Source: Pseudomonadota bacterium (GTDB lineage: Bacteria > Pseudomonadota > Gammaproteobacteria > Burkholderiales > Burkholderiaceae_C). From it: 64,000 nt of DNA. Every line of letters begins with the position of its first letter. The stretch's first letter is position 1. Where the stretch lies: contig CAUJHV010000014.1 in the NCBI GenBank assembly GCA_963205115.1, positions 248,001 through 312,000 on the forward strand, read 5' to 3'. The notes under the pieces are model-generated. The model had not been told where the DNA came from, ran no database searches, and saw nothing but the letters and a program-made list of their open reading frames with translations. Of this stretch, positions 14,031-64,000 are shown in pieces. The position numbers were made by a program, and so were the translations under genes.

Positions 14031-14037
14031 TCCCACT

Positions 14038-14093: not shown

Positions 14094-14100
14094 CGGCCGA

Positions 14101-16671: not shown

Positions 16672-16831
16672 GGCCGTACGGTACACGAGCGGCCGCGCAG
16701 GCCTGGTCGCAGGGCCAAGTGGCGACAGACGGCAGGCGATGGCGACCGCGGCAGGCACCCGGGTCGCGCCGCGAATCCTGCATGCAAGCCGGCTGAACGA
16801 CGGCGGCGCCCGCGCGGCGTCCAATCACGCC

Positions 16832-17701: not shown

Positions 17702-17738
17702 GCGGCCAGCCGAGGCGGGCTGTCGCGGCCTGCGGCAC

Positions 17739-47472: not shown

Positions 47473-47845
47473 GCGTTTCGGAGAGCCGGTTCCACAAGAT
47501 CGGCTGCCGGGCACCGCTCGCTTGTGGGGCCGGCGATCGACCCTCAGCGGTCGAACGACTCGCTCCGAAGCTGCCCGACGGCTTGGCCTGTTCCTTCACA
47601 TCGAATCGCCCCGAAGCTGCCGTTCGCGGCCACCGGCGGTCGGCCACAAGCCGGCGTTCGGTCCCGCTGGACGTGTACCCAGTCAAGGCAGGCTGCGGCC
47701 ACTCAGGCGCGGCGCTTGAGCGGCGGCTTTGGCCGGGAGCAGTCTTGCGCGGATCGGTCCCTCCCATTCCCACCAAACTGCTCCCTGAGAATCCTGTATC
47801 CGGCGGCCTAGCAGGCCTCGGATGCCGACAGAACAGGGAGAGCTC
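47473..47845. other. 373-bp gap without a recognisable gene (edge of accessory region)
   Basis: No open frame here resembles a known protein. Base composition and codon-like periodicity shift here from the very GC-rich chromosomal style to the milder style of the next gene. No tRNA, direct repeat or integrase remnant is visible that would define an attachment site. It must contain the promoter of the RelA/SpoT-domain gene. Confidence 0.5.
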
Positions 47846-50800
47846 ATGGACTTTGCTGAGTACGAGCGCACAGCCTTCGATGCCTACAAGGATTTCGCCG
47901 AAGCCGTGGCAGCGCTACTGAAGGAGGCCCTCGTCGCCGAAGGCAGGTACCGGCTGCAGGAGGTCCGGTGGAGAGCGAAAGAGGTGGATTCGCTGCGCAA
48001 GAAGCTGCACGACCGAGGCCTGGAAGCGTCCACCACCGTCGAGAGCGAGATCAAGGACCTAGCGGGCTGCCGGGTCATCTTCTATACGAACACGGACGTC
48101 TCACGGCTGCTCAGTTCTGGCCTGGTCCACGAGACTTTCGAGGTGGTTGACTACAAGTTCCACCACCCCAAGCGCAACGATGAAGACGGCGAGCTGTACA
48201 CGTCGAACCACTTTGTGGTGAAGCTCAACGCGGACAGGCTCGCGCAGCCCGGATTCGGCAAGTTCGCTGGCATGCGCTGCGAAATTCAGGTGCAGACCAT
48301 CCTCAACCACGCTTGGTCGGAGATGGCCCACGACACTGTCTACAAGGCGCCTGAGTTGGACGCCCTGGGTAGACGGACCCTGGACGAAATCAAGGTGCGC
48401 ATGCGCAGGATCGCCCAGGAATACCTGGTGCCGGCCGGCTATGAGTTCCAGAAAGTCGCGGCCGACTACGAGCGCCTGATCGAAGGCAAGGCCCTCGCGG
48501 ACGAGAGGCCGCTGGACGCCATCGTGGCGGCTCCCGATAACAACGAGCGCTTCGAGGCCCTCCTTCGCTTCAAGGATCAGGTGCTGCCGCTTTATGACCA
48601 CCCGGAAGAGTCCTATCCAGTGATCGTGGATCGGCTTATCGCCGCCGCAAGAACAGCCCGAACCACGGCTCCGGTGGCCATTGAAACCCCATACGGCAAC
48701 TACGCCGGCAAGACTTTCGAGCAGGTGCTTACCCCCATCGGCGAGATCCTCTCGTACTACCGGTACATGGATTCGGCGACGACCTTTGCTGCAGTGCTGA
48801 CGCTTGATGAACTAGTGGAGGAGCCAGAGGCCGTAAAGGGCGTGATCAAGGTGGGCGAGGTGCTGACCAAGTTCAACTTCCACCTCGCCGACCATGGTCT
48901 GGGTGTCCAAGTGGTCCTGCTCGACGCGATGGATGCGCTGGGGCCAGAAGGCTGGGATGCCCACCGTCGGCTTTTGACGCCCATGCTCGGCAACATGCTC
49001 AGCCTCGAAGTGAGCGGCACGACACACCACTCAGCCAGGGTGGAGTTCAAGCGCGGCACCCTACCAGCGTCGGCGGACCTCAAGGCCATCCGCGGACGTG
49101 CGATCCACCTTCTGCAGGCGATCTTCGCGCGGGCTGACAGCGACGCCCAGCGGCTCGCAGCGCTGCGGGCTATGCGGACGGCGGCGCGGGCGCCGATGCA
49201 GGGCGGCTACAGCGATGCGACCCAGGAACTGATCATGCGCAGTGCCGCCGAAGTCATCGAGTTCCACGCGCAGTTCCTTCCAGACCTCAGCCTGGAGTTG
49301 AGGCAAGACTGCGAGGCTTGGGTCAACCGGCTCTACCTCACCTATATGGAGCTGTCGGAGGCCATGCGGGCACAGCCGCGGCTCGTCGAAGCTCAGGCCC
49401 CGCTGATCGCGGCGGGTCTGCGGTTCAGGGACGCCGTCAACGCCGATCCCGAGTATGTGATTTTCAAGACCTTGGTAGGGTACGACTCGGTCTTCCCGCC
49501 TGCTTGGACTGACAGGAACTTTCGCTACACGGAGGTCGAGGCCTACCGGCAGACCATGTTTCCTGGCCTGATCGATTCGGTGACCGACGCCACCACAGAG
49601 GCCTGGTTTCGCCGGCTGGATCTCTTCGCTAGGGCCGATGGCACGGATGGCGCGACGTTCTCTGCCTTCGGCAGGTTCCTGGGCCAACTGGCAGAAACCA
49701 AACCCGAATTCGTGCTGGGCTACCTGCCGCGCCTCGACGGGCCCCTCGCGACCTTCTTGCCAGTGTTGTTGAACGGACTGCTTCAGACCGCCCTGCGGCC
49801 GCAGACGCTCGCGGTGATGGACCAGTGGATCGTCGACGGGCAAAACCTGGCTCAGCTCGCCTGGCAGCAACGAACGGCCAACCCGTTCGATGTAGGGCTG
49901 CTTTGCAGGATCCTGCAGCGCGCCATTGAGATCAACGACCTGGCCACCGTCACCAATGCATTGATCGCCTCGGCTGATCAGTTCGATGCGCACCCGGGTA
50001 CGCTGATCTCCGAGGTGTTCATGCCGGCCATCGTCTTCCTAGAAGCTTCTGGCAAGTACGACTGGTTGCGCTGGCCGTGGACCTCATGGCTCTCGAAGGG
50101 CATCGTCGAAGGGCTAGACGAGGCCAGCGCCGAGCGGCTGCTAAAGGCGCTGGTGCATTGCCCGGCGCTGGAGCACAACTGCGAATACATGGTGGCCTCG
50201 GTCGCCAAGGCCTTCCCGGTCAAGGTGCTGCGCTTCATCGGCGAACGCATCCAACTGGGCAAGAGCGAGGCGGCGCCGGCGGACTATGAGGCAGTCCCTT
50301 TCGACCCTCACATGCTCAGAGAGGCGCTGAAGGCGCAGCTCGCTGCGTCGCCCGACGTTGTGCTGAAAGAAGCGCAGGGCTGGTTCCAAACCGACCACCT
50401 GCGTTTCCCTTACGGCGGTGCCAGAACGGTGGTGTCGATCTTCCCGGCCGTGGACGGAGACATGGCCGCCTGCCTGATGCAGATTGCGACCGATGGCGAC
50501 CCGGGCCAGCTTGCTTTCCTGGTGGCACTGCTGGAGTCCTACAACGGCCAGCGGTTCCTGTATCCCATCTTGCGCGCCCTCGTCGCCCGGCTGGAGCCGG
50601 GCGACGCCTTGCTCAGCGGCTTGGCGCGGGTCTTGGATCAATCAGGTGTTGTGAGCGGCGAGTTCGGCTACGCCGAGCTCAATATCGAGAGGAGAGGCTG
50701 GATCCAGCCTTGGATTGAAGACGACAACGAAAAGGTCCGTGCGTATGGACAGAAGCGCGTACGTGAGCTCGACGCGACCATCGCCTCGGAGACGCGCAGG

Positions 50801-50869
50801 GCAGAAATCAACGTCGCCATGCGGCGCATGGCCTACAACGAAGACGTCCGTGGCAAGGATAGTGAGTAG
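47846..50869 (+). CDS. RelA/SpoT-type nucleotide pyrophosphokinase domain fused to a large helical C-terminal region
   Basis: A 1007-residue protein with no signal peptide. Residues about 30-170 form a (p)ppGpp-synthetase domain with all key positions: R43/K45/S49/K52-53 (RWRAKEVDSLRKK), D71-x-x-G-x-R76 (DLAGCRVIFY), Y118/S120/H122 (LYTSNHFVV), E146-I-Q148 (CEIQVQT), and HAWSEMAHDTVYK (155-167). There is no HD hydrolase and no TGS/ACT. Residues about 200-1007 are predicted mostly helical, Leu/Ala-rich and HEAT-like in texture, without a motif I recognise. It is far longer than small alarmone synthetases (about 200-250 aa) and arranged unlike RelA/Rel. GGGAGAG lies 5 nt before the ATG. Codon use is less GC-biased than the genes to the left, and an IS scar follows, so it is probably acquired. 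A stress- or phage-triggered toxic nucleotide synthetase is one hypothesis. Confidence 0.85.
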   Translation: MDFAEYERTAFDAYKDFAEAVAALLKEALVAEGRYRLQEVRWRAKEVDSLRKKLHDRGLEASTTVESEIKDLAGCRVIFYTNTDVSRLLSSGLVHETFEVVDYKFHHPKRNDEDGELYTSNHFVVKLNADRLAQPGFGKFAGMRCEIQVQTILNHAWSEMAHDTVYKAPELDALGRRTLDEIKVRMRRIAQEYLVPAGYEFQKVAADYERLIEGKALADERPLDAIVAAPDNNERFEALLRFKDQVLPLYDHPEESYPVIVDRLIAAARTARTTAPVAIETPYGNYAGKTFEQVLTPIGEILSYYRYMDSATTFAAVLTLDELVEEPEAVKGVIKVGEVLTKFNFHLADHGLGVQVVLLDAMDALGPEGWDAHRRLLTPMLGNMLSLEVSGTTHHSARVEFKRGTLPASADLKAIRGRAIHLLQAIFARADSDAQRLAALRAMRTAARAPMQGGYSDATQELIMRSAAEVIEFHAQFLPDLSLELRQDCEAWVNRLYLTYMELSEAMRAQPRLVEAQAPLIAAGLRFRDAVNADPEYVIFKTLVGYDSVFPPAWTDRNFRYTEVEAYRQTMFPGLIDSVTDATTEAWFRRLDLFARADGTDGATFSAFGRFLGQLAETKPEFVLGYLPRLDGPLATFLPVLLNGLLQTALRPQTLAVMDQWIVDGQNLAQLAWQQRTANPFDVGLLCRILQRAIEINDLATVTNALIASADQFDAHPGTLISEVFMPAIVFLEASGKYDWLRWPWTSWLSKGIVEGLDEASAERLLKALVHCPALEHNCEYMVASVAKAFPVKVLRFIGERIQLGKSEAAPADYEAVPFDPHMLREALKAQLAASPDVVLKEAQGWFQTDHLRFPYGGARTVVSIFPAVDGDMAACLMQIATDGDPGQLAFLVALLESYNGQRFLYPILRALVARLEPGDALLSGLARVLDQSGVVSGEFGYAELNIERRGWIQPWIEDDNEKVRAYGQKRVRELDATIASETRRAEINVAMRRMAYNEDVRGKDSE

Positions 50870-50898
50870 GCAGGTGGTCGCGGACGCCGAAGTAGGCA

Positions 50899-51057
50899 AT
50901 GGAGGACATCAAGCTGCACAGCATGCGCCTCGACGACCACATGAAAGGCATGGCCAGTGTCAACCTGGCCGACCAACAGGCGGTGGCGGACGGCCCCGGC
51001 GTCGACGTCGACGCTAATGCACAGCCGCAGCGTCCGACTGAACCGGACGCTAGCTGA
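50899..51057 (+). CDS. Possible 52-residue ORF of unknown function
   Basis: The frame begins MEDIKLHSMRLDDHMKGMAS and ends in a Pro/Asp-rich tail. It starts 29 bp after the RelA/SpoT-domain gene; a GGAGG precedes internal codons but not the first ATG. It has no recognised family. It could be the remnant of a longer gene cut by the rearrangement that left the transposase scar downstream. The rest of 50870-51336 shows nothing I can name. Confidence 0.25.
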   Translation: MEDIKLHSMRLDDHMKGMASVNLADQQAVADGPGVDVDANAQPQRPTEPDAS

Positions 51058-51336
51058 CCGACCGAGCCTGCCGCCCCTCACCAGCGGACGCCTGAGTCAG
51101 AAAGTTGCCTCAGATTGACAGTGGTTATTGCTGAACGCACTACCAAGGCCAGATGACGGCTTCAGGTCATCAACCGTGAACTCGACTTCATGCCGAGGAC
51201 GACGGCAATCGCTGCGGACCGGCTGCACCCGGTCGAACGGCGACCGGCAGCTCAGGGGCGACCAGCGACAGCACGGTGAGCGATCTCACCGCCGCAGAGC
51301 TGACCCCCAAGTTGAGGCGCCGGACAGCCGCGCGTC

Positions 51337-51521
51337 GTCAAGGGCACGTTCGATGCCATCCTCGGGTGCGGCCTCCTGGCGCTGGGCTTCCTGAGCTTGC
51401 GCCGCGGCGAATGCGGCCACGACAAGCTGGTGGCGTTGTTTGCAAGCGGCGCGGCGGGTTCTGTCCGTCCTGCGGCGCACGGCGGATGTCGCTGCGGGCA
51501 ACGCACCTCGTGGACCGCGTC
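51337..51521 (+). pseudogene. IS91-family transposase fragment, frameshifted
   Basis: Two adjacent frames together encode the N-terminal zinc-binding region of an IS91/IS801-type transposase. The first reads ILGCGLLALGFLSLRRGECG then HDKLVAL. After a shift near 51435 the second reads VCKRRGGFCPSCGARRMSLR then ATHLVDRV. Both match the contiguous family pattern LRCGfLehGFLrlrC-x-CGHDKLVAFSCKRRGFCPSC. The catalytic tyrosine region and element ends are missing. It is therefore a dead remnant. Confidence 0.75.
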
Positions 51522-51529
51522 AGTCCCAG

Positions 51530-51823
51530 CTTGACCTGGATGCGCTGCAGGTGGTTGATCAGCGCGACGATGCGACCGCGCACGAACCACTCGGGGTTGT
51601 TGGCCACCGTCGGGTCGCCGGACAAGCGCGCCGCCGCGCGGTAGGTGTCACCCCAGACCGGCATATCACGCGAGCCGTGGGCGAACGAACCGAGCGGCAC
51701 CTGCGTGCGGCCGTCGATCATTTCCCAGACCAGCTGCACCGGCAGTGCGCCGCCGTTGCGCTGGGCCAAGGTGGTCAGGTCCGATGGCTTCTTCGATTGC
51801 CAAATCATCATGTACGCCTCCAT
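51530..51823 (-). pseudogene. Cytochrome c-family protein fragment without its haem-binding part
   Basis: The 98 codons read SKKPSDLTTLAQRNGGALPV, then VWEMIDGRTQVPLGSFAHGS, then RDMPVWGDTYR, and end with EWFVRGRIVALINHLQRIQVK. This is the conserved C-terminal half of a family of single-haem c-type cytochromes, but the CxxCH half that should precede PSDLTTLA is gone and replaced by unrelated sequence. The 3' end stops exactly where the oppositely oriented transposase fragment ends (8-bp gap), so the normal stop is also lost. A truncated, non-functional relic that marks a recombination junction. Confidence 0.65.
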
Positions 51824-52169
51824 TGGCGAGTGAACCGGGCCGCCCCGCGGTGGTACGGCCCGTTGCCGCGGCGACCTGTCCCTATTGAGATGGGACCCGT
51901 CGTGCGCATGGAGCCAACGCAACGCGCGCGAAAGGGCCGCAAGATCGAAGGCTTTGTGAAGCCTCTGCGGCTGGTGGGCTGAATCCGTTGCAGGCGGCGG
52001 CTTCATGCGCGCCGCGGTTGGGTAGCGGACCAAGGGTTATGCCTGATGGCTTGGACCCTGTGCCAAAGGCTCTGGCTGCCCCACACTACGGCGGCGCGAC
52101 AGCTGGCCGCAACCGCGTGGCGTCGCGCGGGTCGTTCTACCCCCCAAGGCTGAGGTCAATCCGCCCGCC
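51824..52169. other. 346-bp gap upstream of the large-protein operon
   Basis: No recognisable gene. A short open stretch near 51915-51981 (RKGRKIEGFVKPLRLVG) may be relic coding sequence. The promoter of the large-protein operon should lie here. I see no clear -35/-10 or operator. A weak TGAGG lies about 13 nt before the next start codon. Confidence 0.4.
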
Positions 52170-54497
52170 ATGAATGCGAAGGACACCACCAAGCTGATCG
52201 CGAAGGGCCTTGAAGGCCGCGAGAGCGACGAGGCCAAGGCGCTGGGCTACCTTCAGAAGCTGAACCTGGCGGGCATGGATGTGAAGGGCCAGGTCAGCTC
52301 GGCCTACGGGCAGTCGGGGTACGGGCTCGGCATCGACGCCAAGTTTGACTTTGGCGCGCTCCTGGTGCCCTTTGTGCATATGGATGTGGGCTTCTCCATG
52401 GCGGGCTCTCGCACGGCGCATGCGCTGCTGGTGCTGCAGCGCATGCCCAAGGCGGTCTGGCTCGAGGATCACCCCCGCCCGCCCCAGCCGACAGCGGCAC
52501 AAGCCCTGGCGCTGCCGCCAACGGCGCCCGCCGCGCCGACGTGGAAGACGCAGCAGCCCATTGCCATGGCCTTTCTCAAGGGGCGGACCCTCAAGCTTGC
52601 CGCCAAGGTCAGCACCGCCGCCTGGGCCGGCTTCGGTTCTTTCGATGACTTCGACGAGACCGGCCTCACCATCGGCGCCAAGGCCGAGGCGTCCAGCGGC
52701 GGCTCCATCACCCGGCTGGTTGAAAGGCAGCCGCGCCACTACCGCTCATTGCGCGACAGCCGGTCAACGCTCTCGGACGATGTCGACGACCTGTTCGAGG
52801 TGCGACTCAAGGCCAAGGTGGCGGCCTGGATTCTGGCCTGCGTCGAAGGCGTCAACAAGCTGCAGAGCTACGACATTCCAGCCATCTCGCTGCGCGAGCA
52901 GGCGCGTGATGCCGGCCTTGCGGACGATGCCGAGACGGCCCTGCTGACCACGCTTGACTACTACGACAGGCTGACTGTCAATGACGTGGACAGCATCGCG
53001 ATCGCCGGGCTCGGACTGCAGGTCAAGAATGTCTTTGCATCGGCCGTGAAGCGCGTCAAGGGCATGCTGGCCACGGCGAGCACGGACGATCTGCTGAAGG
53101 AACTGGACACCATCAAGGCCCAGCTCGACGAGCTGCAAGAACGCTTCAAGCACAAGGAAGGCAACGAGCTGCTGCCCGGCGAAGTGCGCAAGGAGTTGTG
53201 GGACGCGACCGTGCGCCGCCTCCATGAGGTCAGGGAGCTGATCGCAGCCCTCAAGCGGCGCAAGGAGCGCAAGGCCCGGCTGTCGGCGCCCCAGGCGGCC
53301 CCCGCAGCGGCCACGCGTTCGCCGCCGTTTCACCTGGACATCTCGGCGGTTGAGGGCAGCCTCGACGGGGCGGCCGGCACCAAGCTGGTGTTGCCGCGCC
53401 AACAGGTGACCGCCAAGCTGGCCCTGGAGGGCCGTTGCCAGTTCCGCAGGATCTCGTTTCGCTACCAGGCCACGGCGCCGGGCAAGGACGATCGCACCCT
53501 GCTGAGCAGCCAGGATACGGTGATCCGGTACACCACCCGCAAGGTCACGCTCACCGGGGCGGCCTCGGCCTTGGAAAGGAAGGCCACGGGCTTCCTGAAG
53601 GAGCGCGGCAACCTAGTGACGATGTCGTACCGTTCCGTACATGTGCAGTGGTTCGACGACCTGAAACCCGACAACGGTCAGGCCCTGCCGAACGGCAGCG
53701 GTGTCTCCTTTGGCCTGTCGGTGCTGGCCGAGTCGCTGGAGCTCTACCGCGGCGCCTGCATCGCGCGCGGCAAGCCCGTGGCGGGCGCGCCGTCGCCTCC
53801 CCTGGTCGGCGATTTCAGTGAGCTGGAAACCGCCATGACAAAGCAGCTGCGGGTCACGGCCGAAGAGCTGCGCAGCTTCATGCGCGACTTGCCCGACTGG
53901 ATCGGCAAGTCCTACCTGAACGACGAGGACAAGACGCGCGTCGAATCGTTTCTCGTCGAAAGCAGCTTTGCATTCACGACGCTGCACAAGCTGGTGATCG
54001 TCGATCGGCGGCCAGATGCGCTGTTTGAGCTGCCGCCGGTGATCGCTCTGCTGAAAGCGACGCAGCGCCCGCCGGAACTGCGCTTGCAGGCGCTGCGGCT
54101 GCGCTATCGCGTGCGCACCGACGACGACAAGAGCCGCAACCTCATCAACCTCGGCTGGAACCCCGAGCCCTGGGGTGAAGGCTTGAAGCCTTGGGGCCAG
54201 GGTTCGGTGGATGGCTCTCAGCCCTGGTATGTGCGGCTGACGGGCGTGGACCCGAAACTGCCCAATTGGTTCAACCTGCCCGCGTTGGCGCTGCAGCTGG
54301 GCATCGGCCTGGAACGCGTGGAGCGGGTGGGATCTGAAGGCATCGTCGAGTTGCACCACACCTTGTTCCCTCAGCCCTATGACCCCTCGGACGCGCCCAA
54401 GGGTTACGGTCGCTCGCTGGCCGACACCCTCACGGCCCGTAACTGGCGCTTGATCACCGATCTGCTGGTGCCTCCCGTGACGCTGTTCAGCCAGTGA
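52170..54497 (+). CDS. Uncharacterised 775-residue protein, first gene of the large-protein operon
   Basis: I do not recognise this family. There is no signal peptide or membrane helix. Residues 1-100 are moderately polar with DVKGQVSSAYGQSGYGLGID and LLVPFVHMDVGFSMAG, followed by a Pro/Ala-rich linker to about 128. A mixed region follows to about 300, then a likely coiled coil at about 305-375 (LLKELDTIKAQLDELQERF, RRLHEVRELIAALKRRKERK), a short Ala/Pro linker, and a C-terminal alpha/beta half with FRRISFRYQA, VHVQWFDDLKPDNGQALPNG, RLRYRVRTDDDKSRN and NWFNLPALALQLGIGLERV. The regions look like separate structural modules. It is followed at 88 bp by the DUF6603-type gene in the same direction. 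The start is uncertain because no strong ribosome site precedes it. Confidence 0.75.
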   Translation: MNAKDTTKLIAKGLEGRESDEAKALGYLQKLNLAGMDVKGQVSSAYGQSGYGLGIDAKFDFGALLVPFVHMDVGFSMAGSRTAHALLVLQRMPKAVWLEDHPRPPQPTAAQALALPPTAPAAPTWKTQQPIAMAFLKGRTLKLAAKVSTAAWAGFGSFDDFDETGLTIGAKAEASSGGSITRLVERQPRHYRSLRDSRSTLSDDVDDLFEVRLKAKVAAWILACVEGVNKLQSYDIPAISLREQARDAGLADDAETALLTTLDYYDRLTVNDVDSIAIAGLGLQVKNVFASAVKRVKGMLATASTDDLLKELDTIKAQLDELQERFKHKEGNELLPGEVRKELWDATVRRLHEVRELIAALKRRKERKARLSAPQAAPAAATRSPPFHLDISAVEGSLDGAAGTKLVLPRQQVTAKLALEGRCQFRRISFRYQATAPGKDDRTLLSSQDTVIRYTTRKVTLTGAASALERKATGFLKERGNLVTMSYRSVHVQWFDDLKPDNGQALPNGSGVSFGLSVLAESLELYRGACIARGKPVAGAPSPPLVGDFSELETAMTKQLRVTAEELRSFMRDLPDWIGKSYLNDEDKTRVESFLVESSFAFTTLHKLVIVDRRPDALFELPPVIALLKATQRPPELRLQALRLRYRVRTDDDKSRNLINLGWNPEPWGEGLKPWGQGSVDGSQPWYVRLTGVDPKLPNWFNLPALALQLGIGLERVERVGSEGIVELHHTLFPQPYDPSDAPKGYGRSLADTLTARNWRLITDLLVPPVTLFSQ

Positions 54498-54502
54498 GCG
54501 CC

Positions 54503-54589
54503 ATGAGCCCCAGCGTCAGGCCCAACCCCGTCATTCAGCGGCGCTTTGCGGTGTCCCTGCGCCACGGCGCTGGCCGGAGGTCCGCATGA
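54503..54589 (+). CDS. Possible 28-residue leader ORF overlapping the DUF6603-type gene
   Basis: The frame starts 5 bp after the 775-residue gene stop (MSPSVRPNPVIQRRFAVSLR...) and its TGA lies inside the ATGA of the next start codon. That arrangement would allow translational coupling across the 88-bp gap. It could equally be chance. The Arg-rich composition is not informative. Confidence 0.25.
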   Translation: MSPSVRPNPVIQRRFAVSLRHGAGRRSA

Positions 54590-57500
54590 GCCTGATGGAC
54601 GACTTCACCGCGGTGCGCGAGGCCTTGCAGCGCCACCTGCCCCGCGCGGCAACAGGCAGCCTGGTGACGCTGGACGAAGACGGCCTTCGTGTGGCCGAAC
54701 CCGGCGTGAGCCTGGCCGACCTTTCGCATCTGATCGACGACATCACCGGCGGCCATCACGCGTTGCCTGAGCGGCTGCCGCTGGCCGATGTCCGATTGAA
54801 GCAGCTCAGCCTGGGCCGCGGCGTGGATGGTGGTGCGGAGCTGGACTTCACCGTTGCATGGGCCCAGGCCGAGCTGCAGGCGGCGGGGCCGTATGCCCTG
54901 AGCCTGGCCGAGCTTCATTTTTCGATGCGTCGCAGGGCGCTCTCGGCCGCGGCGCGGGCCCGCTTCAAGCTCGAGGACCTGGACCTCGAGCTGGGGTTCG
55001 AGCTGCCGAGCCAGGTGTTCGAGCTTCACCTGGCGGCTGACCAGCTGGATACCGCCGCGGGCTTGTTGTCGCGCCGGGGGTTGATGCCGCCGCCGGGCGC
55101 CGGGGCCGCTGCGGGCGGGCCGAAGATCCGCAGCGTGCTCGTGCGAGGCTCGTTGATCTTCGAGCGCGTGATCCTGAGTGTTGAACTCGACGATGTCTTC
55201 CGTGTCGGCCCCCTGCGTCTGGCTTATGCAGCCGCCGAGATCGACCTGGGCGGCGTCGAGGGGCCCACACTGGACGCGCAGGCTGAACTGCGCATCGCCG
55301 TGCCTGGAAAGTCTGACCTGGTGCTCGATGTCGAGGGCTCGGTCGATTCGGCCGGCTGGCGTCTGGCCGGTTCGCTCGAGTTGGCCGGTGGTGGCCTGAC
55401 GATCGGCGAACTGGTCGGCGCGTTTGCAGCGGCCTTCCATCAAACCCCGCCGAACGTGCCGGCCGTGATCAGCGGCCTGAGCCTGGAGCGGCTGGACGTT
55501 CAACTCGACACGCACGACCCGAGTTTCAGCGTGCGGGCTGCGCTGGACTGGCAGCAAGACGCCGAGCTGGTGGTGCAACTGGTCAAGGCCGGACCGACAC
55601 TGCAGGTCGAGGGCCGTCTGGCGCTGGCTGGCGTGAGCTTGCGGCTGGATCTGGACCGCAGCGTGGGCGGCAGCCTGCTGGTGGGCTCGTTCGATGCGGC
55701 TGGCAGCGCGCCGCTGACGCTGGCGGCACTGCTCAAGGCCCTGAGGGTGCGTGGCCCGGCGAGCCTGGACACGTCACTGGACATTCGAAGCATGGCCGTG
55801 GCGCTGGATGGCCAGCGCCGGATGATGCTGGCCGCCGAGGTGGATGCCGGCATCGACCTCGCGCGCCTGGGCGATCTGCCGCTGGTGGGTTCTCTGCTGC
55901 CCAAGGGCGGGCTGCTGGGTCTACAGCTCACGCCGTACTACCTCGCGAGCGGCTTCAGTGCGTCCGCCGCCGCGCGCAGCCTGATGCCGGAGAGCCTGGC
56001 GCTGCCCGACCCCTTGGAGGCGGGACCTCATGTGTCCATGAGCCTGCAGCTGGGCGACAAACCGATGGCGCTGGGCAGCGACAAGGGCCTCACGGCAGCC
56101 CAGGCACCAGACGTTCTGCCCGCTGGCCAGACCGGCCCGCCAGGCGCAGCGGCCCAAGCGGCAGACACCGACAACGGCCTGACCTGGAAGGAGGTGAAGA
56201 AGTCTTTCGGCCCGCTGCAGGTGGGGCGCGTGGGTTACCACTACGAGCCGGACAGCCACGTCAACCTGGCCTTTGATGCCGGCCTCGAGTTTGCCGGGCT
56301 GGCGCTCAGTGTGGACGGCCTGGGGGCGCGCTACGAATTTGCCACCCGCCAGCTCACACCGCGGCTGCGCGGGCTGGGCATCGACCTCAAGCGCGGGCCC
56401 ATCGAGATTGGCGGCGCTTTCCTCCATGCCGATGGCGACTATCTCGGCCAGGTGGTCATCAAGACCCGGCAGTTTGCGCTGACTGCGGTGGGCGGCTTCG
56501 GCATGGTCGACGGAACGCCGTCGATGTTTGCCTACGGCGTGCTCGACATGCCGATCGGCGGGCCGCCATTCTTTTTTGTCGAAGGGCTCGCTGCGGGCAT
56601 CGGCCTGCACCGCAGCCTGCACGTGCCCACCATCGAACAGGTGCGCAGCTTTCCGCTGGTGCAGACGGCGGGGGTGAAGCCGCCCTTGGGCAAGCCCGCC
56701 AAGGCACTCTCGAGCGAGCAGCTGCAAGCCCTGCACAACCATGTCAGCCCGCGCCTGGGCGAGTACTTCGTGGCGGCGGGCCTGAAGTTCAATTCCTTCC
56801 GGCTGGTGCACGGCTTTGCCCTGCTGGTGATGACGGTAGGTCGCGATGTCGAGGTGGATCTCATCGGCACGGCAGACTTCGCGTCACCACCGGACCTGCC
56901 CGACACGGTGCCGGCACTTGCGCGGGTGCAGCTCGATCTGCTGGCGCGCATCGTCGTCTCCGAAGGTTTCATCGGGGTTGAAGCGCGGCTCGATCCGAGC
57001 TCTTACGTCTACAGCCCGCTGTGCCACCTCAGTGGCGGTTTTGCCTTCTATGCCTGGAGCCGGGGCACACGGGCTGGTGACTTCGTCTTGTCGGTGGGCG
57101 GCTATCACCCCGATTACGACAAGCCGGCGCACTACCCGCTGGTGCCGCGCGTGGAGCTCAAGTACCAGGTGAGCCCGGAGGTTTATCTCAAGGGCGACGC
57201 CTACTTTGCTTTGACCCCCAGCGTGATGATGGCTGGCGGCGGGCTGCATGCCCACGCGGAGATCGGCTCGCTCGTCGCCTGGGCCGATTTCAGCGCCGAT
57301 TTCTGGGTGGCCTGGGAACCCTTCCATTACGACGCACGCATGCACATCGGCATCGGCGCCAGGTGGAAGTGCTTCCACACCACGGCCAGCGCTGATCTGC
57401 ACATCTGGGGCCCTGACTTCAGTGGCTCGGCGCATGTCGAATGGTTTGTGTTTTCCTTCGACCTCGAGTTTGGCGCCGGCTCGCCAACCGTGCCGATGGC

Positions 57501-58224
57501 CATTGGCGTCGAGAAGTTCCTGAAGTCTTTCCTGGCGGTCGAGATGGACCGCTCCAAGCCTGGCGCGCCCGAGACCCACAACGCGACGCTCGGCCTCACG
57601 CTGGCCGAAGGCGTGATCGGCGAAGTGGGGGGTGTGTCCGTGGTGGCGCCTGCGAGCCTGGTGATCATCACCTCGTCGCGCGTGCCGGTGACACACGGCA
57701 CGCTGGGCGCGCAGCCGAGCGCGCTGCCGGCGGCCGCGATCGGCATCGCGCCCTCGGCCATCACCGCGATCACCTCGAGCCACAGCGTCGGCATCCAGCG
57801 CCGCACCCAGGGTCGATGGTTGGCCGTGCCTGACGCCGAGTTCGTGATGGTGCCGCTGCCGCCCACGGGCTTTCCGCAGGCGCTGTGGGCCCCGGGCCCG
57901 GTCAGGCGCAATGCGCTGCCGCTGCAGGCCGTGGGCGGGTTCAGCATCAAGCCGGCGCTGCCTCCGGTCAGCGGCAGCAGCACGCCGGTGGCCTTTGAGG
58001 ACATCCGCTACGCGCCGCTGACCGACAAGAGCAAGGTGCTGCGGCAGGTGGCACATGCGCTGCCGCCCGGTGGGCGTGTGGTCGGCGGCGCTGTCGAGAT
58101 GGCGCTGCGCGGCGACTTGCAGGCCCTGGGCCTGCCGGCGCTCTCGCTCAGACAGCCGCCCGCGATGCGCAAGGCGCCGCAGATCCTGCTGGGTGCGCAC
58201 GTGGAGGAGCCCGTTCTTGTCTGA
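54586..58224 (+). CDS. DUF6603-type giant protein
   Basis: A 1212-residue protein. The C-terminal half carries the pattern I associate with DUF6603: GGPPFFFVEGLAAGIGLHRS with VPTIEQVRSFPLV at about 658-692, GGYHPDYDKPAHYPLVPRVE then VYLKGDAYFALTPSVMMAGG at about 845-885, FSADFWVAWEPFHYDARMHI, and SADLHIWGPDFSGSAHVEWF. The N-terminal 600 residues are a long series of alternating short hydrophobic strands (LELGFELPSQVFELHL, LVLDVEGSVDSAGWRLAGS, LQVEGRLALAGVSLRLDL), so the whole is probably an extended beta-rich structure, AsmA-like in texture. No signal peptide is present. GGAGG lies 6 nt before the ATG. The stop region overlaps the next gene by 8 nt. Biochemical function of this family is unknown to me. 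Confidence 0.8.
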   Translation: MSLMDDFTAVREALQRHLPRAATGSLVTLDEDGLRVAEPGVSLADLSHLIDDITGGHHALPERLPLADVRLKQLSLGRGVDGGAELDFTVAWAQAELQAAGPYALSLAELHFSMRRRALSAAARARFKLEDLDLELGFELPSQVFELHLAADQLDTAAGLLSRRGLMPPPGAGAAAGGPKIRSVLVRGSLIFERVILSVELDDVFRVGPLRLAYAAAEIDLGGVEGPTLDAQAELRIAVPGKSDLVLDVEGSVDSAGWRLAGSLELAGGGLTIGELVGAFAAAFHQTPPNVPAVISGLSLERLDVQLDTHDPSFSVRAALDWQQDAELVVQLVKAGPTLQVEGRLALAGVSLRLDLDRSVGGSLLVGSFDAAGSAPLTLAALLKALRVRGPASLDTSLDIRSMAVALDGQRRMMLAAEVDAGIDLARLGDLPLVGSLLPKGGLLGLQLTPYYLASGFSASAAARSLMPESLALPDPLEAGPHVSMSLQLGDKPMALGSDKGLTAAQAPDVLPAGQTGPPGAAAQAADTDNGLTWKEVKKSFGPLQVGRVGYHYEPDSHVNLAFDAGLEFAGLALSVDGLGARYEFATRQLTPRLRGLGIDLKRGPIEIGGAFLHADGDYLGQVVIKTRQFALTAVGGFGMVDGTPSMFAYGVLDMPIGGPPFFFVEGLAAGIGLHRSLHVPTIEQVRSFPLVQTAGVKPPLGKPAKALSSEQLQALHNHVSPRLGEYFVAAGLKFNSFRLVHGFALLVMTVGRDVEVDLIGTADFASPPDLPDTVPALARVQLDLLARIVVSEGFIGVEARLDPSSYVYSPLCHLSGGFAFYAWSRGTRAGDFVLSVGGYHPDYDKPAHYPLVPRVELKYQVSPEVYLKGDAYFALTPSVMMAGGGLHAHAEIGSLVAWADFSADFWVAWEPFHYDARMHIGIGARWKCFHTTASADLHIWGPDFSGSAHVEWFVFSFDLEFGAGSPTVPMAIGVEKFLKSFLAVEMDRSKPGAPETHNATLGLTLAEGVIGEVGGVSVVAPASLVIITSSRVPVTHGTLGAQPSALPAAAIGIAPSAITAITSSHSVGIQRRTQGRWLAVPDAEFVMVPLPPTGFPQALWAPGPVRRNALPLQAVGGFSIKPALPPVSGSSTPVAFEDIRYAPLTDKSKVLRQVAHALPPGGRVVGGAVEMALRGDLQALGLPALSLRQPPAMRKAPQILLGAHVEEPVLV

Positions 58225-60106
58225 GCTTGATTCCGGCCCGCAGTTCGCCGCAGGCGACCGCATGGTGTTTGTCGACCGGCAGGCGCCTGCGCTGCCGCCC
58301 GGCGAGTACGAGGTTCAGCTTGGCCATACCCTGAGCTATGGCGCCCCGTCAGCGACGGTGCTCGATGGCGGGCGCAGTCTCGGCTTCGTGGTGGCCGGGC
58401 CGCGCTTCGGGCTTGCGCCGTCGGAGATCGCCGGCCGCTTTCCGCCGCCCGGTGCGGACGGTGAATTCGCCAGCGTGCTGCCGCATGTGCTGCTCGAGCG
58501 CCCGACCTTGCCCTGGGAGCGTTCTGCCGTGGACAGCCAGCCGGCCGAGACGCCGTGGCTGGCCTTGCTGGTGCTGGAGGAGAGCGAACTGAAATTCAGC
58601 GCGCTCGTGCCCGTGTCGAGCCTGGTGACCGCCCAGGTGGGTGCGCCCGCGCCGCCGCTGTCGGCTGCGTTCAGCCCCTTGTCGCGCGAGCCTGGCGACG
58701 ACATCGCCCAAAGCGTGCATGTGATCGAGATCGAGGCCGAGTTCGCACGCCAGTGGCTGCCGACACCCGAAGAGCTTTCGCTGCTGGCGGGCGTGCGCCG
58801 GCTCGAAGACCTGGCGGGCGCCGCCAAGGGCGAACCCCGTGCCGTGGTGATCGCCAACCGCCTGCCCAAGCCGGGCGTGCGCAACCTGGTGCACCTCGTC
58901 TCTCTGGAGCTGCAGTACAGCGGCAGCCCGGCACGCCATTGGGCCGTGACGACAGGACCCCACGCGCCCTCGCGTGTGCGCCTGGTGAGCCTGGCGAACT
59001 GGGACTTCAGCTGCGCAGGCGACACCGGACACTTCGAAGCCTTGCTCGACAAGCTCGCCATCGGCGAGTTCCGCCTGGGCGCCGCCGGTCTGGGCCCGGC
59101 GCAGGGCCCGGTGGATGCCGGCGCCGTGCCCGTGGCGTACCGGCTCGACACCGGTGCCAGCACCGCTGCCTGGTACCACGGGCCTCTGGCGACCCGCCGG
59201 CGCGCGCCGGCGCTGGCCCTGCCGGCGCGCCATGCCAACGATCTGCTGCTCACCGAGGCGACCACCGGCCTGACCGATGTGTCCTACGCGGCGGCCTGGA
59301 CGCTGGGGCGGTTGCTCGCGCTGCGCGACCCGAGCGTGGGTGTGCCGTTGAACCAGTGGAAACGTCAGGTCGCGCAGGCCGCGCGGGCCGCGCAGTGGCT
59401 GGACACCACGCCTTCGGACCACCCGCCGCCGCCGCCCAGCCCGCTGTTCCCGCCGGCACTGCACGACTGGTTCGAGCACGCGCTGGGCCGTCTGAAGGCG
59501 GTACCCTTTGCCTATCTCGTGCCCGAACCGGCCTTGCTGCCGCCCGAGACGATCGGACTGCTGCGTATCGAGGCCACCTGGATCCAGGCTTTGGTCGACG
59601 GGGCGTTCAGCATCGGCCGACACAGCCGGCAGCAGGCGCTGCAAGACGCCGCCTTGGGCGCCGTGCTGCCGAGGATCGCTGAGCGCTCCGCGGTGCTGTT
59701 GCGCTCGGCGCTGGTCGCGGGTTGGCCAGACCTGGTGGTGGACGGTTTCGGCCCGCCCAGGCCGGGCAGCGCAGCCGCTGGCGACGCGCTCAAGCCGCTG
59801 CGCTTCGACCGCCTGGGCAAGGACACGCTGCTGGTGGTTTTCGAAGGCCCGCTGGCCCGGGTGGATCTGCATCTGCACCCCCAGGGCATGCACTTCGGCG
59901 TGGATGTCACGCCGTCGGGCGGCTTCCAGAAAGGGCAGGCCGGGCCGGTGCCGATGCGGGCGGACGCGGCGCAGGTGCCGCGCCGCGTGATCGACATCCT
60001 GGCCTTGCAGACGGCCCTGAAGGCGACGGGGCCGCATGAGTTTGCTTCGCGCATGCTGGAAGGCATACCCAAGGCGTCGTTCTCACTGCAGGAGGTCTGG
60101 TCGTGA
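58217..60106 (+). CDS. Uncharacterised 629-residue protein coupled to the DUF6603-type gene
   Basis: No characterised family recognised. It begins MVFVDRQAPALPPGEYEVQL after a short leader; the GEYEVQLGHTL / LGFVVAGPRFGLAPSEIAGR stretch (about 29-70) looks like a beta-sandwich. SVLPHVLLERPTLPWERSA and TPWLALLVLEESEL follow, phrasing I recall from large uncharacterised proteins of actinobacteria and myxobacteria. KAVPFAYLVPEPALLPPETI then WIQALVDGAFSIGRHSRQQA lies near 430-475. No signal peptide. The start TTG 58217 overlaps the previous gene by 8 nt and has AGGAG 8 nt upstream; ATG 58262 is possible but loses that site. Its stop overlaps the next start (GTGA). Confidence 0.8.
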   Translation: MSELDSGPQFAAGDRMVFVDRQAPALPPGEYEVQLGHTLSYGAPSATVLDGGRSLGFVVAGPRFGLAPSEIAGRFPPPGADGEFASVLPHVLLERPTLPWERSAVDSQPAETPWLALLVLEESELKFSALVPVSSLVTAQVGAPAPPLSAAFSPLSREPGDDIAQSVHVIEIEAEFARQWLPTPEELSLLAGVRRLEDLAGAAKGEPRAVVIANRLPKPGVRNLVHLVSLELQYSGSPARHWAVTTGPHAPSRVRLVSLANWDFSCAGDTGHFEALLDKLAIGEFRLGAAGLGPAQGPVDAGAVPVAYRLDTGASTAAWYHGPLATRRRAPALALPARHANDLLLTEATTGLTDVSYAAAWTLGRLLALRDPSVGVPLNQWKRQVAQAARAAQWLDTTPSDHPPPPPSPLFPPALHDWFEHALGRLKAVPFAYLVPEPALLPPETIGLLRIEATWIQALVDGAFSIGRHSRQQALQDAALGAVLPRIAERSAVLLRSALVAGWPDLVVDGFGPPRPGSAAAGDALKPLRFDRLGKDTLLVVFEGPLARVDLHLHPQGMHFGVDVTPSGGFQKGQAGPVPMRADAAQVPRRVIDILALQTALKATGPHEFASRMLEGIPKASFSLQEVWS

Positions 60107-63100
60107 GCGGCTCGCTCGAGTTGATGGTGCCCGTGTCCGTGCACGCCCTCTGGGTTGCGCATCTGCAGCGCGTGATCGGGCCCCTGGCGGACCACGAGCG
60201 TCTGCCCTGGTTTGACGGCACGCGTGACCGCAACGGCTCCGTGCCGCACCTGGCCGCGGCCATCAACGCAGCACCGTTCTCTGACCACAACGCCTGGCTC
60301 GAACCGGGTGTGCATTTGCACTGGTTCTTACCGGCGGGCCTGACCCGCGGCGGCACGCGCCGCACGGCGGAGCGCACGGTGCAGGTGGGAGATCTGTGGT
60401 TTCCGCCCGCGCCCAACCGCTGGCTGGTGTTTCGCCGCGAAGAGCGTAGCGCCCATGCCTCGCGCGCATGGCTGGTGGAAAGCGACTACGTGCATCCGCC
60501 CGGTTTGCGGCCCCGTGGCGCCATTGCGTATCCACTGCCTTACCCGCAGCCGGGGCAGGCGCCGTTTGTCTATCTCGGCCGCCAGATCAGGCTGGACCCG
60601 CTGACCCTGGAGCCCGAAGACCCGGCCGTGCAGCCGGCAAGCGCCGACAACAGCTTGTCCCGGTTCGCGCCGGCTCTGACGGCTGTCGGCCCCGGAGACC
60701 CGCTCTTTGCCGCGCACTACCCGTCCTGCCGCAGTGTTTTCGGCCTGCACGACGACCAACCGGCGATGGACCAGGTGGCGGGTTATTCGGTCTACGGCTG
60801 GTATGGCGACGGCCTCATCGAACCGCTGCACAACCTGCGGGCCGCCTTGCGCGACAACGCGGATCATGGCCCTGCACGGGCGCGTCACCTGCTGGCCCGC
60901 CAGCGCCATGCCGAGCAGCTGGAGGCGCTCGAGGCACAGGGACACGGCGACCACCACCCGTTGCCGCCAGAGCCGGTGGCCCCGGAAGGACCGCTGGACG
61001 AGGCGCAGTGGAACCAGGCCCTGCGTCTGGCCCTTCGCGAGCGCTTCGGCTGGACGATGCGCAACGACACCGACACCGCGGCGTTCCCGACCGATTTGAT
61101 GTGCGCAGGCATGACCGCCATCACCGCGGGCCTGGAGCACGTGCCTGATCAGCCGCCGACCACGCAGGCGGCGGGCATCGGCCACAACCCGGCCGAAGCG
61201 GCCGTGGCTTTCGTGACCGCGGGCGTGTCGAGCACGCTCACGCCTGACATCGAAGACCGTTTGACGCAGGAATTGACCGACACCGACCTCAGCGACCATG
61301 CGCTCGACTTCGGTCCCAAGCGGGCCGAAGCGCGCCACCGGGAGCAATTCCGCAGCGAACGCGGCCACGCGATCTGGACGGTGCGGACCGTGGGCTCTTC
61401 GGATCCCGAGCAGGTGGGTGCCCGCAGCAGCCTGCCGGACGGCCTGGCCCATGAGCTGAACGAACTCAACCTGCGCCAGGCGGCCTATGACCGCGCGCAG
61501 GACCAGATCGCCGCGCTGCGCCAGGAACTGTTCTCGGACTGGAGCCGCTACATGACGGCGGCCTACCCGGAGGGCGATGCCGACCCTTTCGGCGCCGATG
61601 TAGATGCCGTGCGCGACCTGGCCGAGCGCAGCCGGCTGGCACCGCTCGAAGCGCTGCTGCGGCGCAGCGGCAGGCTCTTTCACGCCCATGGTGCTGATGG
61701 CGGCGTGAGGTTGGCCGACGCGCACACGGCCGCATTCGGTCATCCAAGACAGCACGGCCGGCTGGCCGGTGGGCCGGATGGGTTGCGGTTCGACGACGCC
61801 GTGGCGCCCGGCGAGCGGCTGCTGGGCTTCGATGTCTATTTCGGTTCGATCATCGATGGGCTCACGCTGGTCGGGTCTGAAGGCACGCGGCCGCGGCGCA
61901 CGCTCAGCGGCCAGCTGGCCCGCGTGCGGCTCGCCGCGGGTGAGCACATCACCGCCATCTTTGGCCAGGCGGGTGTGTTCATGTCCATGGAGCTGGTCAG
62001 CAAGCTCGGTTTTGAAACCAGCCACGGCCGCCGCCTGGGCCCCTGGGGCTGGAACCCGGAGCCGCTGCCGGCCTTTCGCCTCGAAGCACCGCCCGGCACC
62101 GTGGTGGTCGGGCTGTGCGGCCGCAGTGCAACCTGGCTCAGCGCGTTGGGCATTCTGGTCGCGCCGCCGGGCCACCATGACCTGGAGCCCGAGCCCGCAG
62201 GCGAAACACTGGCAGGCCGGGTGGTGGAGCAGCACCGCCGCGTGCAGGCGGTGCTGGCCGACGCCGAGCCGGCCAGCACGCGCCAAGGCCACAGGCGCGT
62301 GCTGGCCACCACGCCGGGGCCGCGCTTCTGGCGCCCCAACGACCCGGTGATCGCCTTGAGCGACTCGCATGTCCAGGCGAACGCCACGCGTGGCGGCGCC
62401 GGGCCCGACGGCAAGCTGTCCGACCCGGCCTGCTTCCTGATCGCGGTCACCGGGGGCTGGGGCGCGGCGGGCAAGGTTCTGGCCGGCAACCTTCGGGCGC
62501 CGCTGAGTGCCAGCAGCGGCCGTTGGACGCTCGCGGAGCATCCGCTGTTCATGAGCGGGTCTCAGGCCAAGCACTGGTGGCCCTTGCAGCTGGAGTGGGA
62601 AGTGGAGCTGCGGCCAGTGGCCGACGGGGGCAACACGGGGGACGAGCCCGCTGCCAGTGACGACGAGTCCACCGACGCCGGCCGCAGCGGCGCAAGCCCG
62701 GAAGGCCGACGCTACGCCGCCGACTTCATCACCCGCTCGCAAGCGCTTCGCGTCGGCGCCGTCGACTGGGTTCCCCGGCAAAGCCCGAAACTCGCACGCA
62801 GCTACCAGTACCTGGCGGGGCGCAGCCTGCTGAATCCGTCCATCGGTGCCCGCATGGTCGATCAGCTCAAACGCCTGCCCGACGAGCTGAAGCCGCACGT
62901 GGCGGTGCCTGAGTCCTTGATGCTGCTGCCGCTGAGTGGCTTTCACGACCACCTGCTGATGCAGGGGCAGGAGCCGCAACTGCCCATCTCCGACCCCATC
63001 GGCCTGCCGGGTCAGCGCAGCTTCACCGAGCGTGTGCGCCAGGCAGTGGGGCCGTTGCATCCCACCACGCCGCTGTTCGACAGCCCGTTTCATCCCATCC

Positions 63101-64000
63101 GTAGCGGTGAATTGCTGATCGAGCGGCTGCGCGTGATGGACGCCTTTGGCCGTACCCAGGTCTGGAAGCCTTCGAAGCTGCACACGCCGCGGGCGCTGCG
63201 TGCCGACGGCGACGCGCGCGACCGGGCAGCGATGTCCTTGCGGCTGGCCCAGTCGGCGCGCCTGGACCTGCGCTGGCTGTCGGGTGCCCACGGTGATCTG
63301 GAAAGCAACGCGCACCCGTCAACCTCGCCGGTCTGCGGCTGGCTTGTCGTCAACGAACTGGATGACGAAATCGACGTGTATGCCGGCTCCGGGCACTTGC
63401 TCGGCTCGGTCGACCAGGCCGGCACCTGGTCGGCAGCGCCGGGAGACACGCCATCACCACGGCACTGGAGAGACGTCACCGACAGCGGCCTGCGGCGCTT
63501 GCTGCACTGGTTGACGCTGCCGGTGGATGGCCGTGTGGCCGGCTTCATCGCGCATCTGGACGAGGTACTTGCCACCATCGACCCCAAGGACAGCGCGCAG
63601 CATGCTGCGCGAGCCTTGCTGATCGGCCGACCCGTGGCGGTGGCGCGTGCACGGCTGGCGCTCACGCTGCGGCACCCGGCGGCCATCGACCAGTCCGTCA
63701 CCGCGCTGAATGCGCGACTGGCCGGTGACGTCGACCAGACCCATGGCGTGGGCGATGTGCGGGTGCCCGTGCGCCTGGGGGGACGCCATCAGGTGGACGA
63801 CGGACTGTGTGCGTGGTGGATCGAAGACGGCGCCTTGTTCCGCGACGAAGGCACAGGCCCGCACCTGGACGAGCTGATCGAGCTCACACCGGACGGACCG
63901 CCGCGAGAGCTCACGCTGCTGCTGGACCCGCGCGGCGCCGTGCACGCCACCTGTGGCCTGTTGCCCGCCAAGTCCATCGACATCCCGCCTGACCTCTTCA
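60103..64000 (+). CDS. Giant protein with embedded jacalin-like lectin domain (partial, runs off the right edge)
   Basis: At least 1299 residues are in the window. The first 170 read GVHLHWFLPAGLTRGG, LWFPPAPNRWLVFRR and AWLVESDYVHPPG. A helical, coiled-coil-prone stretch lies at about 445-490. Residues about 547-686 look like a jacalin fold: GGPDGLRFDDAV, LLGFDVYFGSIIDGLTLVGS, GEHITAIFGQAGVF, LGFETSHGRRLGPWGW and GTVVVGLCGRSATWLSALGI. The remaining 600 residues are unrecognised, with an acidic Ser/Asp/Gly linker near 850. No signal peptide. The start GTG 60103 overlaps the previous stop and has AGGAGG 7 nt upstream. The lectin domain suggests glycan binding. The stop codon is not seen, and further operon genes may follow. 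Confidence 0.8.
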   Translation, partial: MSGSLELMVPVSVHALWVAHLQRVIGPLADHERLPWFDGTRDRNGSVPHLAAAINAAPFSDHNAWLEPGVHLHWFLPAGLTRGGTRRTAERTVQVGDLWFPPAPNRWLVFRREERSAHASRAWLVESDYVHPPGLRPRGAIAYPLPYPQPGQAPFVYLGRQIRLDPLTLEPEDPAVQPASADNSLSRFAPALTAVGPGDPLFAAHYPSCRSVFGLHDDQPAMDQVAGYSVYGWYGDGLIEPLHNLRAALRDNADHGPARARHLLARQRHAEQLEALEAQGHGDHHPLPPEPVAPEGPLDEAQWNQALRLALRERFGWTMRNDTDTAAFPTDLMCAGMTAITAGLEHVPDQPPTTQAAGIGHNPAEAAVAFVTAGVSSTLTPDIEDRLTQELTDTDLSDHALDFGPKRAEARHREQFRSERGHAIWTVRTVGSSDPEQVGARSSLPDGLAHELNELNLRQAAYDRAQDQIAALRQELFSDWSRYMTAAYPEGDADPFGADVDAVRDLAERSRLAPLEALLRRSGRLFHAHGADGGVRLADAHTAAFGHPRQHGRLAGGPDGLRFDDAVAPGERLLGFDVYFGSIIDGLTLVGSEGTRPRRTLSGQLARVRLAAGEHITAIFGQAGVFMSMELVSKLGFETSHGRRLGPWGWNPEPLPAFRLEAPPGTVVVGLCGRSATWLSALGILVAPPGHHDLEPEPAGETLAGRVVEQHRRVQAVLADAEPASTRQGHRRVLATTPGPRFWRPNDPVIALSDSHVQANATRGGAGPDGKLSDPACFLIAVTGGWGAAGKVLAGNLRAPLSASSGRWTLAEHPLFMSGSQAKHWWPLQLEWEVELRPVADGGNTGDEPAASDDESTDAGRSGASPEGRRYAADFITRSQALRVGAVDWVPRQSPKLARSYQYLAGRSLLNPSIGARMVDQLKRLPDELKPHVAVPESLMLLPLSGFHDHLLMQGQEPQLPISDPIGLPGQRSFTERVRQAVGPLHPTTPLFDSPFHPIRSGELLIERLRVMDAFGRTQVWKPSKLHTPRALRADGDARDRAAMSLRLAQSARLDLRWLSGAHGDLESNAHPSTSPVCGWLVVNELDDEIDVYAGSGHLLGSVDQAGTWSAAPGDTPSPRHWRDVTDSGLRRLLHWLTLPVDGRVAGFIAHLDEVLATIDPKDSAQHAARALLIGRPVAVARARLALTLRHPAAIDQSVTALNARLAGDVDQTHGVGDVRVPVRLGGRHQVDDGLCAWWIEDGALFRDEGTGPHLDELIELTPDGPPRELTLLLDPRGAVHATCGLLPAKSIDIPPDLF

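Follow-up and report, generated by a model that had tools for sequence, protein, structure and literature searches.

A conserved module of giant DUF6603-associated proteins found in at least six bacterial phyla, with candidate exchangeable surface-recognition tips

A run of very large genes lies at the right-hand edge of the 64,000-nucleotide stretch of DNA analysed here (the window), raising the question of whether these genes form one system and, if they do, what that system acts upon. We find that three of them make up a conserved module present in at least six phyla, for which no function is described in the literature searched and which has no match among the defence, phage and injection systems it was compared with. 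Such a module would be widespread and yet escape annotation. The varied tips associated with the module, together with a lectin domain in one of its proteins, point to what is recognised, so that binding tests can start at once.

A run of overlapping large genes extends past the window edge

We refer to the four genes in the window as A, B, C and D, and to a fifth gene beyond its edge as E. A sequence-only reading of this DNA had described four open reading frames lying head to tail. Those of 775, 1212 and 629 aa are present on the forward strand (A, 52170-54497; B, 54586-58224; C, 58217-60106), but the run is longer than four genes: D (60103-64000, forward strand) is open at the window edge and, in the sequence to the right, continues to 64530 for 1475 aa in all, and E follows at 64527-66239 (570 aa; L004:1527-3239). 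C starts with TTG; the frame itself opens earlier, at 58055, and alignments with relatives of C begin near this TTG.

The overlaps noted earlier are real: the ORF coordinates of B and C overlap by 8 nt and those of C and D by 4 nt, with GGAGG-type sites, judged by eye, upstream of B, C and D. D and E likewise overlap by 4 nt, with a weak ribosome site, and A is separated from B by a gap of 88 nt. Because of the overlaps, we take these genes to be co-transcribed; no promoter-like site was detected by a promoter scan of 50870-54700, and promoter and terminator scans over the genes yielded no excess over shuffles that would set the operon ends. Right of D, the genes scanned (delimited, like all neighbouring genes described here, by ORF picking) comprise E, an MFS-type transporter gene 292 nt beyond it, a PEP-CTERM protein and metabolic-type genes, with no known secretion apparatus among them, in line with the sequence-only reading.

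Pfam confirmed both of the domains recognised earlier, DUF6603 in B and a jacalin-type lectin in D. In B, PF20248 (DUF6603) spans residues 537-991 with an E-value of 1.1e-126 and 423.8 bits (gathering cut-off 27), placing B in a family without assigned function, and neither DUF6603 nor PF20248 is mentioned in the literature searched. The claim of a beta-rich architecture is clear for B (beta-moment z = 7.2) but not for the other proteins (E, 2.1; A, 1.8; D, 1.6; C, -0.3). Similarly, simple hydropathy detected no N-terminal signal-like stretch in any of A-E, as had been stated, but the accompanying statement that membrane helices are absent must be tempered by one hydrophobic stretch near residue 1010 of B (Kyte-Doolittle 2.0).

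B, C and D form a conserved module

Three of the genes, B, C and D, are conserved as a module. C represents a core family that has no name (family alignments A1 and A4); searching 84,980 species with it as the anchor returned 41 loci in six phyla, 33 of which also contain B and D; the remaining 8 end close to the match, on short contigs (3.7 to 13 kb). B, C and D occur together in 41/50 loci, a count in which L123-L125, having been picked for their DUF6603 and C matches, are independent in D and E only. Of the 9 other loci, 8 are those on short contigs, and L069 contains only a piece of C. The true exception is L082, with C, a D divided between two frames, and no B. C is also found in 8 plasmid records, of which 6 were included, the two others being of the same species as one included.

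In a phylum sample of 349 genomes (with the window's own genome counted), DUF6603 was present in 9 and C in 10, with all 9 shared and the two families lying within 2.2 kb of each other; the tenth C genome (G412, E 4e-4), whose 11-kb contig shows neither B nor D nor E, is probably a chance match. In a class sample of 274 genomes, DUF6603 was found in 6 and C in 5, all 5 of them shared.

B, C and D stay side by side across phyla, and their order is not always the same. Among pairs on the forward strand, with duplicate genomes partly dropped, C closely follows B (possible start at -8 to +30 nt) in 32 of the 37 pairs examined, and D lies far from C in 34/41, mostly because one type of module, here called the giant type, has a second C gene between the two. 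In place of E, this type carries a different large fifth gene, in which Asp-box motifs are sparse (mean of 1.2 in 14 sequences vs 0.03 in shuffles). A second, distant copy of the module is present in the window's own genome, and its B is 3364 aa long.

C has a counterpart in a further class of DUF6603 operons (type 2), where its profile matches the gene family adjoining B (97%, E 3e-10) and other families at 1% or less, in a comparison that included 7/11 loci (6/10 genomes). The third gene of type-2 operons has no match to B, C, D, E or the giant-type fifth gene, and neither A, the N-terminal part of B nor the tip of E matches the N- or C-terminal parts of the giant proteins, the fifth-gene family or the type-2 partners. 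No PDB sequence relatives were found for the B or C profiles. We also considered a phage origin, judged on C, and rejected it for this family: a giant-type C query had no match in 50,697 phage records, and the C alignment had none in viral contigs.

D carries a lectin domain and E a candidate exchangeable tip

The N- and C-terminal parts of D are conserved and its middle is variable, and it is in this variable middle that the jacalin-type domain resides (PF01419, residues 578-684; E 1.4e-8, 35.7 bits vs a cut-off of 22, profile positions 25-135 of 136). The domain is closest to plant mannose/glucose lectins, and none of the fetched D relatives matches across it. D thus shares PF01419 with jacalin-related lectins, with predicted sugar binding, and differs from them in carrying it as one domain inside a 1475-aa protein. 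Against the PDB, D gave a single chance-like match (Pescadillo, E 0.027).

Judged by profile, E belongs to the conserved set in some lineages: it was detected in 8/50 other loci, by a profile that does not pick up the tip proteins of the PLAT, Streptomyces and L124 loci; these we placed by position only. The E proteins of some relatives join a related N-terminal part to a phage tail-collar or fibre-like tip. The collar exceeds the Pfam cut-off in L079 (30.7 vs 24) and falls below it in L078 (19.2), which nevertheless has a PHROG match, as do L080 and L124; L123 has no collar match. In the window's own E, the tip has no Pfam or PHROG match, and a collar-like ending beats 1000 shuffles but is a weak motif (E 0.42). 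This protein alone has no PDB sequence relatives, and the E profile reaches PDB tail fibres (E 1.5e-4) in collar columns contributed by the relatives.

Other loci end in different tips. In the G387 locus, the final gene (L124), placed after D, combines a tail fibre/collar region with a mannose lectin, and in L085 it is a PLAT protein that comes after D. On a Streptomyces plasmid, D is followed by two tandem genes that resemble each other through the first 240 columns, with 29-36 matches in each block of 40 columns, and differ towards their ends (6/18, 5/29 and 11/25).

Gene A and the left flank

Left of the genes, the sequence-only reading had noted an insertion-sequence scar, and a remnant of an IS91-type transposase gene is indeed present (51316-51478, forward strand). 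It resembles an IS91-like gene on another contig of the same genome (contig 12 of G000, L130), with 76% nucleotide identity over 164 nt (E 2e-28) and 60% identity over 43 aa at the protein level; at E<=1 the IS91 zinc-finger model found nothing there, and the stretch has no counterpart among plasmid records. An antisense frame at 51338-52033 looked cytochrome-like, an impression that was not confirmed.

A, on the other side of the remnant, has no known family in domain scans. It was not found in the fetched relatives' loci and has no clear relative in 16 other carrier genomes or records, where a homology search gave a single weak match (E 0.006). The expectation that all four families co-occur in distant genomes is therefore borne out for B, C and D and fails for A, which is probably accessory and outside the conserved set.

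The suggestion that the operon was acquired is plausible. DUF6603 is absent from the 3 genomes listed for the same genus, the IS remnant lies beside the genes, and a tree of B mixes phyla (midpoint root, with a long window end branch, support of 90/95 for the compact group only, and L052, L070 and L124 left out by a length filter). Against acquisition, the G+C of the operon (67.5-69.9%) is ordinary for the window.

A model for the module and its alternatives

The reading we favour, with a probability of roughly 45%, is that B, C and D form a horizontally moving scaffold that presents exchangeable surface-recognition tips and binds glycans or surface structures of a target cell. B, C and D would be produced together, their genes being linked and overlapping, and would assemble into a large protein scaffold, which in the window would present the jacalin-type lectin of D's variable middle together with E. 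In E, a tip that can change would be attached to the related N-terminal part, and the tip would set the target. Recognition of glycans or surfaces, proposed earlier, is supported by the jacalin domain in the window's D and by the collar, mannose-lectin and PLAT domains of relatives, and given these domains, the assembly most likely binds glycans or other target-cell surface structures. Some loci place lineage-variable enzymes beside the module (MBL-fold, astacin-like, subtilase and PhoD-like; the last two from 3 type-2 loci scanned, and the astacin-like family from one member scanned), and these may serve as cargo or as partners. Since no signal peptides were seen, lysis or some unknown means of export would be required for release. 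Several observations count against the favoured reading: the unmatched tip of the window's own E, the detection of E by profile in 8/50 other loci, the lack of a beta signal in C and of an export signal in the proteins, the distance between C and D in most pairs, and the different fifth gene that the giant type has instead of E. The sequence-only reading suggested subunits of one large glycan-binding assembly, for instance a toxin-like one. The genes, their overlaps and domains, the conserved neighbourhood and the variety of tips are observed; we infer a single particle that would act outside the cell, and any toxin-like action or other event after binding is likewise conjectural.

The same lectin, PLAT and fibre-type domains would suit an adhesion complex at the cell surface, or a matrix complex, through which the producer attaches to the glycans on its neighbours, hosts or substrates and leaves these unharmed. 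Domain scans found no known toxin domain in A-E, and carriers include filamentous, spore-forming and environmental bacteria, both of which favour adhesion; the lack of a visible signal peptide and the varied enzymes adjoining the module in some loci, which suggest more than adhesion, make it unlikely in our view. An extension of the favoured reading goes further, to a tail-less targeting particle in which a mobile DUF6603-C-D scaffold with acquired phage-fibre and lectin tips delivers lineage-specific enzymes to chosen cells, with an origin separate from contractile and phage-derived systems; we hold this to be distinctly unlikely.

An intracellular conflict or defence module, in which the large proteins recognise an invader and an adjoining enzyme acts as the effector, appears more doubtful still. 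It would fit the patchy distribution and the missing signal peptides, and in G486 an MBL-like gene directly before B resembles the MBL proteins LmuA (Lamassu) and Avs1a, mainly in the MBL part and below curated cut-offs (NCBIfam, 43.7 vs 420); plasmid loci have PLD-like, CHAT and caspase-type genes at distances of ~1 to 9 kb. Yet such enzymes are not constant neighbours (the window has A in the position of the G486 gene), none of A-E matched PADLOC at E<=0.01 (0/5, with D scanned to the window edge), and lectin, PLAT and collar tips fit outer-surface targets better.

The module might instead belong to an extracellular contractile injection system or tailocin, with E-type tips as fibres and B-C-D as a baseplate-like accessory. 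The collar and fibre-like tips of relatives invite this comparison, collar and lectin domains being described for fibres of such systems (PMC12923769), and gp19-type tube genes occur in 7/20 carrier genomes or records. However, 13/20 carriers have no tube and 15/20 no sheath; the 5 with any sheath match have it on contigs (of differing size) that do not hold the module. No tube gene is near the module, those on the same contig lying ~146 kb (G328), ~170 kb (plasmid W03) and ~440 kb (G091) away, and in the window's genome gp19-type tube genes are absent and the one sheath-domain match is on another contig. With neither gene in the locus, and the window's E tip unmatched, this reading was rejected on the sheath and tube searches; on gene content it is largely refuted, and we regard it as very improbable. 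Chance adjacency of unlinked large genes, to which the unrelated A and the absence of E from some loci might point, is scarcely credible and for B, C and D already refuted by their neighbourhood across phyla in several gene orders.

One tip also recalls a bacteriocin: the mannose-lectin region of L124 resembles putidacin L1 and the putidacin-type lectin-like bacteriocins, at scores under the curated cut-offs (54.5 vs 275; Pfam B_lectin, 17.1 vs 32.4), and differs from them in being joined to a collar region.

Genes of the window and their surroundings

The large genes that the sequence-only reading had proposed are real, with open frames running head to tail from 52170, 54586, 58217 and 60103 (A to D). 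Since the window lies inside a 331-kb contig, its right-hand side could be read: D (1475 aa) stops at 64530, beyond the window edge, and its last 4 nt are shared with a fifth gene, E (570 aa), that stops at 66239. An MFS-type gene follows 292 nt downstream of E, and then a PEP-CTERM protein. Genes overlap by 8 nt (B/C), 4 nt (C/D) and 4 nt (D/E), and by eye GGAGG-type sites lie upstream of B, C and D, with the sites of A and E being weak. DUF6603 was identified in B (E 1.1e-126). D contains a jacalin-type lectin region (E 1.4e-8), whose nearest relatives are plant mannose/glucose lectins (best E 1.3e-9). No Pfam family scored above its cut-off in A, C or E, no NCBIfam family was found in A or C, and among the five proteins a clear beta pattern was seen in B only.

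An IS91-type remnant (51316-51478) lies to the left of A-E. An open frame on the reverse strand (51338-52033), which by eye we took to resemble the end of a cytochrome c, matched no family or structure. Left of the IS scar, the gene at 47822-50869 (forward strand) encodes 1015 aa; the early part of the protein carries a RelA/SpoT-type domain (PF04607, E 1e-13), and the long rest has no match. On contig 16 of the same genome, a contractile-sheath-like protein adjoins a beta-helix protein (locus L131, 5804-9595); the genome has no gp19-type tube gene.

B, C and D form a widespread module

An alignment search with C across 84,980 species genomes yielded 41 loci. By B to E profiles, B and D adjoin C in 33 of these, while the remaining 8 stop near the match, with a partial B detected by sequence clustering in 3 of them. 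We assembled a set of 50 loci from these 41, six plasmid loci found via C and three genome loci picked for B and C; all three genes are present in 41, seven are without B, one holds B and a piece of C, and one holds C and E. Contig ends account for all of the incomplete loci but one, a Paenibacillus sonchi plasmid (L082), where D is split over two frames (13890-19241) and B is missing, and which looks like a decaying copy. Counting the window's own genome, DUF6603, C and both together occurred in 9, 10 and 9 of 349 genomes in a phylum sample, in 6, 5 and 5 of 274 in a class sample, and in 14, 4 and 4 of 299 in a family sample; the tenth C match of the phylum sample (E 4e-4) has no further module gene on its short contig. 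The B-C-D module is real and widespread.

Giant and compact forms

In the giant type, a B of ~3300 aa is followed by C, a second C gene (C') and D, and the giant N-terminal parts contain ~80-column repeats (profile E 7e-9). Many giant-type loci have a 1100-1600-aa protein next, and five carry a protein of an astacin-like family there. The astacin-like protein of one such locus (L063, 17230-18333), which like its family follows a giant-type module, also resembles, below the cut-off, the NCBIfam beta-glucuronidase AbsR1 model.

The window's genome itself holds two DUF6603 proteins. The second B, on contig 12, has 3364 aa with DUF6603 at residues 2161-2636. Downstream of it, C is divided between genes of 780 and 343 aa, and a D of 1364 aa and another large protein of 1213 aa come next. 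The two B parts share 31% identity over 482 residues, so the contig 12 copy is not a recent duplicate of the window copy.

Most giants cluster together in the DUF6603 tree (97/98), in a group mixing Burkholderiales, other Proteobacteria, Actinomycetota and Acidobacteriota; a Holophagaceae row stands next to Variovorax (98/89), a placement that we read as a sign of horizontal movement. The window belongs to a compact group (support 90/95), together with Myxococcota, Cyanobacteriota, Bacillota, Streptomyces-type plasmids and others. Four more giants (Gammaproteobacteria and one Acidobacteriota) branch with this group, and giant size is therefore not limited to one clade.

A second type of DUF6603 operon

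The 10 family-sample genomes with DUF6603 but no C match have DUF6603 operons of a second type (type 2), which is separate in the tree (100/100). In seven type-2 loci from six genomes the next gene belongs to one family, whose profile matches C over ~200 columns (97%, E 3e-10), as against at most 1% for the other profile pairings. Another genome (G828) has a weak C match (E 1.9e-4) ~700 nt past DUF6603, perhaps a further case of this relationship. Among the type-2 operons (L022-L032), a subtilase adjoins B in L023 and a PhoD-like protein in L025 and L026; the third large protein of these operons is without match.

Variable recognition ends

Outside the window locus, a profile detected E in 8 of 50 loci. 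The N-terminal parts of E from the window, Cyanobacteria, Hyalangium and other Proteobacteria are related to one another, and the ends vary: there is a collar end in Symploca (L079, above the Pfam cut-off, and L078, by PHROG) and, again by PHROG, in a gammaproteobacterium (L080), the same collar motif occurs in Moorena (L076), and Hyalangium (L072) has repeats that look fibre-like (E 7e-6 to a PHROG tail fibre). In the E ends of the window and L123 (genome G486), nothing was recognised. Further tips, assigned by position only, comprise a protein that ends in a PLAT domain (E 8e-16), encoded by a Streptomyces clavuligerus plasmid, two tandem proteins with similar starts and different ends on another Streptomyces plasmid, and a collar and mannose-lectin protein in genome G387, whose lectin part resembles putidacin L1. 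Mainly because recognition domains of several unrelated folds join one module, we infer that the module binds surfaces, a proposed function drawn from domains and neighbourhood.

Relation to known systems

By gene content, no contractile system lies near the module. C had no match in phage or viral collections, PADLOC returned none for A-E, and DUF6603 (PF20248) is named in no paper found among open-licence full texts; the module is without description in anything searchable. That it seems new is judged by failed sequence matches, and comparing structures could still relate B, C or D to something already described. Directly before B in G486, an MBL-like protein (L123, 3482-5638) resembles both LmuA and Avs1a.
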